Shown one piece after another: positions 8,248 through 9,909 of a stretch of DNA of 64,000 nt. Numbering within the stretch: the first letter of the stretch is position 1; the number at the start of each line of letters is the position of its first letter. The stretch comes from Gilvimarinus chinensis DSM 19667. GTDB lineage: Bacteria > Pseudomonadota > Gammaproteobacteria > Pseudomonadales > Cellvibrionaceae. Made by a program: the position numbers and the translations under genes. Location of the stretch: positions 1,144,249 to 1,208,248 of the forward strand of contig NZ_KB898706.1 in NCBI RefSeq assembly GCF_000377745.1, given 5' to 3'. Below the pieces are notes generated by a model. That model saw only the letters and a list, made by a program, of their open reading frames with translations, did no database searches and was not told where the DNA came from.

Positions 8248-8946
8248 ATGGATACTGAAACTGCAATGGGTCGTGTGAAACTAAGCTCTTATATGTGCCG
8301 CTTTGCCGAAGTCGGTCTCTGGCTTGTGGGTATCAGCCTGCTGTGCCTTTGGGGCTCACAGATGTTACGCCAAGGCCCATTGGCAGAACGGCAAACAGAT
8401 TTATTTCTCGCCCGCGCTCAAGCCGCCACCGCCGATCCCAATACCCAACCCCAACCATCTCTTAACCACCCCGACACTATCGACACCAGCCTCTGGAGCG
8501 CCAAACGCATCGAACAGTTTGGCGCCATTGAACAAAGCAAAGACGATATTATCGCGGTGCTTAAAATCGACAGCCTGGGGCTGAGCGCACCGATTTTTAC
8601 CGAGCCGACCGACAACAATTTAAATCGCGGTCTGGGCTGGTTAGACAAAACCGCTCCTGTGACCGGCGGTGGTAATACCGCCATTGCCGGGCACCGAGAC
8701 AGTTTTTTTCGCGTTCTCAAAGACATTCAAATAGGTGACCGTATCGCCGTGACCACCCTCGAGGGTGAGAAAAGCTATACCGTAACTGAGCTGCAAATTG
8801 TCTTGCCTTCGAACGTTAGCGTGCTCGCCCCCACCGATCACAATCAGCTAACCCTGATCACTTGCTACCCTTTCTACCATGTTGGAAGTGCACCGGAGCG
8901 ATTTATCGTAACGGCCACAGAAAACTCACCTGCAACACTTCATTAA
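8248..8946 (+). CDS. Class D-like sortase (Gram-negative)
   Basis: Sortases are cysteine transpeptidases that cut an LPxT-type sorting signal and join the protein to an amine acceptor. This 232-residue protein has one N-terminal membrane anchor (about residues 21-40, VGLWLVGISLLCLWG), a linker, and a sortase domain. The catalytic set is complete: His149 in AIAGHRDSFF, Cys206 in TLITCYPF and Arg218 in APERF. The TLxTCYPF pattern is that of class D/E enzymes. A second gene 14 bases downstream encodes a protein with an LPSTAS tail, making a self-contained enzyme-substrate pair. An in-frame ATG at 8266 is an alternative start. Confidence 0.9.
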   Translation: MDTETAMGRVKLSSYMCRFAEVGLWLVGISLLCLWGSQMLRQGPLAERQTDLFLARAQAATADPNTQPQPSLNHPDTIDTSLWSAKRIEQFGAIEQSKDDIIAVLKIDSLGLSAPIFTEPTDNNLNRGLGWLDKTAPVTGGGNTAIAGHRDSFFRVLKDIQIGDRIAVTTLEGEKSYTVTELQIVLPSNVSVLAPTDHNQLTLITCYPFYHVGSAPERFIVTATENSPATLH

Positions 8947-8960
8947 AAAAGGAAATGACT

Positions 8961-9515
8961 ATGAAGATCTCTACCTGTATTAAGACCGCAAGTTTAGGAG
9001 TTGCACTCGTTGCCAGTTCAGCGGCAATGGCAAAGGAATGCTCGGAAATCGATTGGAAGCCTGGGGTACTCAACGAATACCCTGAGATTGCCGACGCCTG
9101 TATGGGTGTCGTGGAAATGAACGGTCGCGAATACGTAGAACTGGATGCCAAGTATATTCGCTCTGCGGGTGACCAAGTTCGTTTGCAGTTTAAACACCAA
9201 GACGGTAGCTACGGTGACACCTACCAAACCAAAAATTTACCACCTCACTTTAAGATCGATATCGACGGCCGTGAACACAGCATTCATACCTTAACCCGTG
9301 ACTCGACTCTAGAGCTGTTTATCCCCACTGACCGCTTCGCGATTGTTGCAAGCGTAGATGACATGCCCAAAGAACCTGAAGCGGTTGAAGAAGAAGTAGC
9401 CTACACCGCGCTACCTTCTACCGCCTCGAATGTTACCCTCTACGCTTTACTGGGTTCACTGGCCTGTTCACTGGCACTGGGCCTGACCATTTTGCGCCGC
9501 AAAATGCGCATCTAA
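8961..9515 (+). CDS. Probable sortase substrate with LPSTAS sorting signal
   Basis: A 184-residue exported protein with a signal peptide (MKISTCIKTASLGVALVASSAAMA) and a C-terminal tripartite sorting signal: LPSTAS at 151-156, a hydrophobic helix at about 157-178, and the basic tail RRKMRI. This matches the LPxTA[S/T] pattern proposed for class D-type sortases, and a sortase gene lies directly upstream. The mature region (about 25-135) has two cysteines and no family I recognise; an acidic linker (KEPEAVEEEV) precedes the motif. The ATG at 8961 is chosen because AAGGA sits 7 bases upstream; the ATG at 8955 is too close to it. A hairpin terminator follows. Confidence 0.85.
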   Translation: MKISTCIKTASLGVALVASSAAMAKECSEIDWKPGVLNEYPEIADACMGVVEMNGREYVELDAKYIRSAGDQVRLQFKHQDGSYGDTYQTKNLPPHFKIDIDGREHSIHTLTRDSTLELFIPTDRFAIVASVDDMPKEPEAVEEEVAYTALPSTASNVTLYALLGSLACSLALGLTILRRKMRI

Positions 9516-9524
9516 GTGGCCGTC

Positions 9525-9552
9525 GGCGGCCAGCCACTGGCCGCCGCCTTTT
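9525..9552 (+). terminator. Rho-independent terminator after the sortase operon
   Basis: GGCGGCCAG (9525-9533) and CTGGCCGCC (9537-9545) form a perfect 9-bp stem with loop CCA, followed by GCCTTTTG. It closes the sortase-substrate operon and separates it from the VOC gene, whose start lies just beyond. Confidence 0.75.
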
Positions 9553-9555
9553 GCA

Positions 9556-9909
9556 ATGATTAACTCACAGCACGCCCCCTACCTGGAAATCCCTTCGCGT
9601 TCACTGAGCGCAAGCAAGGAATTTTTCACCCGCGTTTTTCACTGGAGTTTTACCGATTATGGCGCCGAGTACTGCGCCTTTGACTCCGGCTTTAACTTGG
9701 GTGGGTTTTACTTATCTGAGACTGTTGCTAGCGGTGCTCAGAGCTCCTGCCTGATCGTGTTTTACAGTCAGAATCTGGCGCAGACAGAAAAAGCCGTGAT
9801 TGCTGCAGGCGGCACGATCTGCGCAGCCACTTTCGCCTTTCCCGGCGGCAGACGCTTCCACTTTACCGAACCTGGAGGCAGCGAATTCGCTGTCTGGTCC
9901 GATCGCTAG
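9556..9909 (+). CDS. VOC (glyoxalase/bleomycin resistance) family protein
   Basis: A 117-residue single-module protein with the vicinal-oxygen-chelate pattern: YLEIPSRSLSASKEFFTRVFHWSF at the N-terminus (beta strand, then helix carrying the FFTRVF segment) and the C-terminal strand pair FHFTEPGGSEFAVWSD. Members bind metals or small molecules as enzymes or resistance proteins, but the substrate cannot be read from sequence. Its start ATG directly follows the terminator of the sortase operon, so it probably has its own promoter inside or beyond that hairpin. It reads into the start region of the next gene. Confidence 0.8.
   Translation: MINSQHAPYLEIPSRSLSASKEFFTRVFHWSFTDYGAEYCAFDSGFNLGGFYLSETVASGAQSSCLIVFYSQNLAQTEKAVIAAGGTICAATFAFPGGRRFHFTEPGGSEFAVWSDR

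Follow-up and report, generated by a model that had tools for sequence, protein, structure and literature searches.

The closest described relatives of the sortase considered here are the class D enzymes of Firmicutes, represented by the solved structures 2ln7 and 4d70 and by the NCBIfam models NF033746 and NF058671. We take these two structures to be class D enzymes, 2ln7 being SrtC from Bacillus anthracis and 4d70 SrtD from Clostridium perfringens. SrtC of B. anthracis reportedly acts in a diaminopimelate-type wall with diaminopimelate as its acceptor, and the anchoring of BasI in this organism is said to have been studied. Cleavage of LPNTA peptides by the B. anthracis class D sortase is described in PMC3208642. 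For SrtB of the same species, an excerpt of PMC11987632 presents diaminopimelate as the supposed nucleophile, which is perhaps not used in vitro.

Sortase-substrate pairs in Gram-negative bacteria are already known from class GN, in which one enzyme (TIGR03784) and one target (TIGR03788) are encoded side by side and the target carries a PxTA-like tail. A paper on this class describes the role that sortases play in Gram-negative organisms as unknown (PMC10581121). Deletion of a putative sortase in Shewanella oneidensis left the current density unchanged, the class of the enzyme being unstated in the excerpt of that report (PMC8176591). A similar tail, consisting of a motif, a helix and a basic end, is also found in the substrates of rhombosortase (GlyGly-CTERM) and exosortase (PEP-CTERM), although the enzymes and motifs of these systems are unrelated to those described here and the window proteins give no NCBIfam match of either kind. 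In systems of the GlyGly-CTERM and PEP-CTERM type, a single target and its processing enzyme tend to be neighbours, as outlined in PMC3237569.

Here we describe a sortase gene and an adjoining substrate gene in Gilvimarinus chinensis DSM 19667. Both lie in a window of 64,000 nucleotides, the whole stretch of DNA that was analysed. In the open-access literature, searched by titles and the beginnings of abstracts, a scope outside which most subscription papers fall, no description of the cassette was found; nor were experiments on any member of this sortase and substrate clade found in the literature searched.

Organization of the locus

The two genes lie on the same strand, separated by 14 bases (Table 1). 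The sortase matches PF04203 at 101.6 bits, above the curated cut-off of 26.6, and His149, Cys206 and Arg218 are invariant in an alignment of eight related sequences. The reading frame, the Pfam match and this conservation bear out the initial annotation, which had recognized a sortase with a complete catalytic set. Reading frame and translation likewise agree with its description of the second gene as encoding a small exported protein with an LPSTAS motif, a transmembrane helix and a basic tail. The start of the substrate is taken to be the ATG given in Table 1; a longer, TTG-started frame exists in the mechanical list of open reading frames.

Table 1. Features of the sortase-substrate pair (window coordinates)
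Feature	Position	Strand	Remarks
Sortase gene	8248..8946	+	232 aa; membrane helix at the N-terminus; class-D-like catalytic domain at residues 105-224
Sortase N-terminal membrane helix, predicted	8305..8361	+	About residues 20-38; by eye from translation
His149 codon of sortase	8692..8694	+	Invariant in 8 relatives
Cys206 codon of sortase (TCYPF)	8863..8865	+	Invariant in 8 relatives
Arg218 codon of sortase	8899..8901	+	Invariant in 8 relatives
Substrate gene	8961..9515	+	184 aa; ATG at 8961, stop ends 9515
Substrate signal peptide	8961..9032	+	Residues 1-24; AMA/K site by eye; without lipobox
Substrate mature domain	9039..9335	+	Residues 27-125; Cys27 and Cys47; small beta-barrel in AlphaFold2 model
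LPSTAS sorting motif of substrate	9411..9428	+	Residues 151-156
Substrate C-terminal membrane helix and basic end	9432..9512	+	Helix 158-183 in model
Possible terminator	9525..9552	+	9-pair GC hairpin (9525-9545) and four T

The anatomy of a sorting signal is complete in the substrate, with a signal peptide recognized by eye, a motif, a helix present in the structural model and a basic end. An acidic linker precedes LPSTAS, which is followed by the hydrophobic helix and the terminal residues RRKMRI. The general sorting-signal model TIGR01167 scores 15.6 bits on the protein scan or 19.1 in the genome search against a cut-off of 15.9, and PF00746 scores 13.7 against 20.

The pair had also been thought to be closed by a terminator. 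A strong hairpin is present, and the surrounding region (9512-9556) gives an RNA folding z of -2.28, but the hairpin is followed by just four T and was not called by the terminator scan. No promoter-like site was called at the pair.

A Gram-negative clade nearest to class D

The window sortase is nearest to class D both by the sequences of solved structures, 2ln7 being the best match and 4d70 another close one, and by NCBIfam, and the LPxTA motif is common to the two. However, it falls below the curated cut-offs of both class D models (121.4 bits against 140 for NF058671, 112.1 against 165 for NF033746), and five relatives (L045, L107, L065, L018 and L017) are also under the class D cut-offs.

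A FastTree tree was built from 109 sortase cores, the references being just two stretches of class D and one of class C. In this tree, 81 D-like sequences (80 survey loci and the window sortase) and eight from the genus, family and order form a group of 89 with a support of 0.77 that contains no GN-type sortase, while the GN-type sortases form a separate group of 17 with a support of 0.999. With these three references, the window clade lies on the 2ln7 and 4d70 side of the tree, away from GN. The window sortase is assigned to a clade of Gram-negative enzymes, found mostly in Gammaproteobacteria and Acidobacteriota, that is nearest to class D and stands apart from class GN. It differs from the Firmicutes enzymes in its separate clade and also in its substrates, which are small barrels without a family name, with one detected in the G. 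chinensis genome, adjoining the sortase.

The substrate family

The initial annotation had found no known domain in the substrate. This holds for Pfam, a scan of which returned no domain match, and among the proteins scanned neither Pfam nor NCBIfam has a model for the substrate family above cut-off.

The mature domain is well defined in the AlphaFold2 model, in which the ten-residue mean confidence is 89 to 96 over residues 31 to 130 (82.8 overall). Seven strands with short helices are followed by a low-confidence linker and then by the tail helix. No convincing match was obtained when solved structures were searched by sequence (best E 0.089), and a Foldseek search with the model gave nothing at E 0.001 or better. 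The best VIA-align match among solved structures, with EF-P/IF5A barrels over about 60 residues (Z 5.4), may reflect no more than a common barrel shape of the modelled domain. No conserved set of catalytic residues was seen in the barrel domain, and it is therefore read as a probable binding or structural domain.

Cys27, Cys47, P152, T154 and G165 are invariant in an alignment of 40 full-length substrates, nearly all of them labelled Gammaproteobacteria; the rows were picked by eye as one type, leaving aside the substrates of L078, L089 and L108, those of Acidobacteriota, and near-duplicates. The cysteine pair is not universal, being absent from the tailed partners of L078, L089 and L108 (labelled Gammaproteobacteria or Woeseiaceae) and from the Acidobacteriota substrates. 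A lipoprotein reading of Cys27 was discarded by eye, there being no lipobox upstream and the distance from the signal peptide being variable.

An Acidobacteriota substrate was modelled as two modules with a similar strand order, at low confidence (mean pLDDT 69.3, pTM 0.35), and Foldseek gave no match to this model at E 0.001 or better. With the tails removed, hhalign aligned the first of these modules to the gammaproteobacterial domain over 52 columns, with a probability of 93.5 percent and an E of 2.3e-7; a control with sortases gave 1.3 percent. According to these models and alignments, the substrates are small two-cysteine beta-barrels in most of the Gammaproteobacteria seen and two related modules in Acidobacteriota.

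Variants of the arrangement occur among the relatives. In a genome of the same taxonomic class (L133:771-2238, G362) the order is reversed, with the substrate preceding the sortase, and the substrate apparently has two modules. In a Cellvibrio MAG (L043:2081-2536) the substrate domain is present a second time, about 170 bases past the tailed copy, with a signal peptide and no sorting tail. In another genome (L018:1904-2419, G011) the protein encoded after a related sortase is tailed but has a different payload. This distant protein matches DUF5666 (PF18914) weakly, at 21.7 bits against a cut-off of 27, whereas the window substrate gives no match.

Pairing of sortase and substrate across relatives

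Sortases of this kind were surveyed in 84,980 species, one genome per species, using an alignment of eight sortases and the single pattern L[IV]TCYPF[YH]. The 441 matching stretches included 423 confirmed relatives, the best 80 of which were examined as loci. These best 80 of 423 are skewed to near relatives because they are the top-scoring ones and derive from one short sequence pattern. By label they comprise 58 Proteobacteria (mostly Gammaproteobacteria), 21 Acidobacteriota and one member of Gemmatimonadales; many are MAGs. The cassette is also present in strains labelled as isolates, namely three Gilvimarinus, Pseudoalteromonas sp. G4 and Granulicella sp. L46.

A partner was sought as a gene encoding [LMIVF]PxT[AGS], a helix and a basic end, with the gene end no more than 1.8 kb from the end of the sortase gene. 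Such a gene is present in 65 of these best 80 of 423 loci, lying downstream on the same strand in 58. Among nearby frames of 90 codons or more, 65 of 1202 pass the tail rule; among frames further away, 3 of 2046 do. These three distant tail genes are upstream neighbours of the sortase in divergent orientation (L083, L113 and L118, all labelled Candidatus Sulfotelmatobacter), and therefore 68 of the 80 loci have an adjoining partner. Three of the remaining 12 (L059, L070 and L088) have less than 400 bases of downstream sequence. The motifs of the 65 adjacent tails are LPxTA (38), MPxTA (17), LPxTG (9) and LPxTS (1). Besides sortase and substrate, no neighbour family was found in more than 11 of the best 80 of 423 loci.

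Searched from the side of the substrate, seven of 58 genomes (G. chinensis included) have a match, and all seven matches adjoin a sortase gene and carry the tail. A substrate search in 370 genomes of the class gave two matches, in G. chinensis and one other; at most eight candidates per genome were scored, so that this number says little about frequency. The two genes thus occur together and adjoining in relatives, and the substrate family is not one that mostly lacks the tail.

The initial annotation had regarded the small substrate as an exception to the usual VIT/vWFA partner and sortases as rare in Gram-negatives. Instead, a small neighbouring substrate is the rule for this class of sortase, and 26 of the 58 genomes (G. 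chinensis included) have a sortase, which is not rare in this group. Its interpretation is retained in so far as the sortase is closest to class D and is dedicated to an LPxTA-tailed substrate of its own; the pair is not exceptional in its lineage.

Within Gilvimarinus, five of eight genomes (G. chinensis included) have both genes and three have neither. The sole sortase of each pair-less congener adjoins a vWFA-like gene with a YPQTA tail and is therefore assigned to the GN kind. The window pair is flanked by trkH and a glyoxalase-like gene, and in two of these congeners (G005 and G007) about 60 bases separate the matches to the two; in the third (G006) the flanking genes are on different contigs and uninformative for the site. 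The both-or-neither pattern, together with the site in G005 and G007, therefore indicates that the two genes were gained or lost together. In another congener (G002:C1:586637-592492), the distance between the sortase and trkH is about 2.5 kb greater than in the window.

Number of substrates per enzyme

Eleven whole genomes with a sortase of this kind were searched with a tail profile: G039, and the genomes of 10 among the 15 loci in which the 1.8 kb rule finds no partner. The other five loci were set aside for a contig end less than 400 bases downstream (L059, L070 and L088) or a divergent partner (L083 and L118). In one genome the match was the divergent neighbour of L113 and so not a remote gene. 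Nine of the other ten have a tail gene elsewhere, with a best E per genome of 3.3e-4 or lower; in the genome of L097 the sortase is present and no tail gene was detected by the profile. As a control, 11 relatives without this sortase gave one match (E 0.003), covering profile positions 7-31 and lying within an 845-codon frame. Two of the tailed genes recorded, L162 and L164 (from the genomes of L113 and L093), have a common payload end, FGQEFVYP, unlike that of the window substrate.

In G. chinensis itself, the best match of the profile is the window substrate (E 2e-14). Those that follow (E 0.0019, 0.044 and worse) begin at profile position 6 or later; below E 0.01 there is, apart from the substrate, just one frame, of 29 codons, whose match starts at position 16. 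TIGR01167 finds one further place in the genome, at 16.3 bits against 15.9, with the motif positions uncovered. Since the tail profile finds a single full match, the window enzyme apparently has one substrate in its own genome; a divergent further substrate might escape detection, because the tail profiles miss the GN target of the same genome. Elsewhere the number may be higher, as four tail-profile matches in G432 (the genome of L110, labelled Acidobacteria) suggest several substrates.

Proposed mechanism and acceptor

It appears probable that one dedicated enzyme acts on one substrate by transpeptidation in the periplasm. The substrate would be exported by Sec and lose its signal peptide, while its C-terminal helix would hold it in the inner membrane; the sortase, anchored by its N-terminal helix, would have its catalytic domain facing the periplasm. 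By established sortase chemistry, Cys206 would cut LPST/AS between Thr and Ala to form an acyl-enzyme, and the Thr of the mature barrel domain, which is probably stapled by a Cys27-Cys47 bond, would then be passed to an amine. The nature of this amine is among the weakest steps of the scheme; most likely, meso-diaminopimelate of lipid II or peptidoglycan would supply it from its side chain. Diaminopimelate is favoured because the closest enzyme that has been studied works in a wall of the diaminopimelate type, and this wall chemistry is also that of Gammaproteobacteria. The barrel would end tethered to the wall through an acidic linker of about 20 residues.

Alternatively, the sortase might be mainly a protease, with water as the acceptor and the barrel freed into the periplasm or further out. 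We think this rather unlikely, since the well-studied sortases of this fold are transpeptidases, and since the linker preceding the motif, which varies and is acidic or rich in proline, resembles a tether, for which a released protein would seem to have no need. Nevertheless, no acceptor is apparent from the sequence, and rhombosortase, too, is typically a dedicated enzyme encoded beside one target, as described in PMC3237569.

The barrel might also be passed to an amine other than that of peptidoglycan, carried by a second protein, by phosphatidylethanolamine or by an amino sugar of lipopolysaccharide. With a lipid as acceptor, a third gene would be unnecessary, and the best 80 of 423 loci show no further gene that is widely conserved. 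To our knowledge, however, the PF04203 enzymes with a known natural acceptor all act on peptidoglycan precursors or pilin lysines, and PorU, the anchoring enzyme of the type IX system, is unrelated to PF04203 sortases. A non-peptidoglycan acceptor is thus quite unlikely, even though there is a precedent in Bacteroidota, in which the type IX system tethers proteins via glycolipid anchors, according to PMC7468200. Transfer to diaminopimelate remains the reading that we prefer.

Two sortase systems in one genome

The second sortase of the G. chinensis genome is a true class GN enzyme (TIGR03784, 177 bits against a cut-off of 158.25). Its target, of 680 residues with VIT/vWFA, scores 723.7 bits with TIGR03788 against a cut-off of 551.65 and ends in a YPQTAAG tail. 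This complete class GN system lies on contig C1 (L003:7914-10590). With the window pair and the GN pair in the same genome, two PxTA-type sortase systems share one periplasm.

Like the window pair, the GN system is Gram-negative and consists of one enzyme and one adjacent target, but its sortase belongs to another clade, its target is the large VIT/vWFA protein, and the gene order is target then sortase. The window pair might still be read as a usual class GN system whose VIT/vWFA target has shrunk, given that GN systems occur in the genus and that GN target tails are also of the PxTA type. This is very improbable, as the window sortase reaches 83 bits with TIGR03784, well below the cut-off, which the other, genuine GN sortase of G. 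chinensis exceeds, the two fall into separate clades of the tree, and the window substrate has no TIGR03788 match. Class GN membership of the window pair was rejected on these scores and on the tree. Chance proximity of a stray sortase to an unrelated membrane protein is refuted by the conserved pairing across relatives, the genus, the family and the best 80 of 423 loci, and no point in favour of this reading, whose probability is negligible, was found.

Implications

It is possible, though this is put forward tentatively, that these genes represent a widespread Gram-negative system, in which a sortase clade related to class D and a co-evolving family of barrel proteins form a two-gene unit of Gammaproteobacteria and Acidobacteriota. 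Such a unit, inherited as a whole, might fasten a periplasmic binding domain to an acceptor of a new kind, which would be a lipid or else diaminopimelate in the thin wall. The profile obtained in this analysis could let annotators name the substrate family.

In G. chinensis a single enzyme of this class is accompanied by a single detected substrate of 184 residues, which makes the genome about the simplest setting for finding the acceptor. If the tentative reading of a widespread system is correct, true sortases would be anchoring proteins covalently in diderm proteobacteria.
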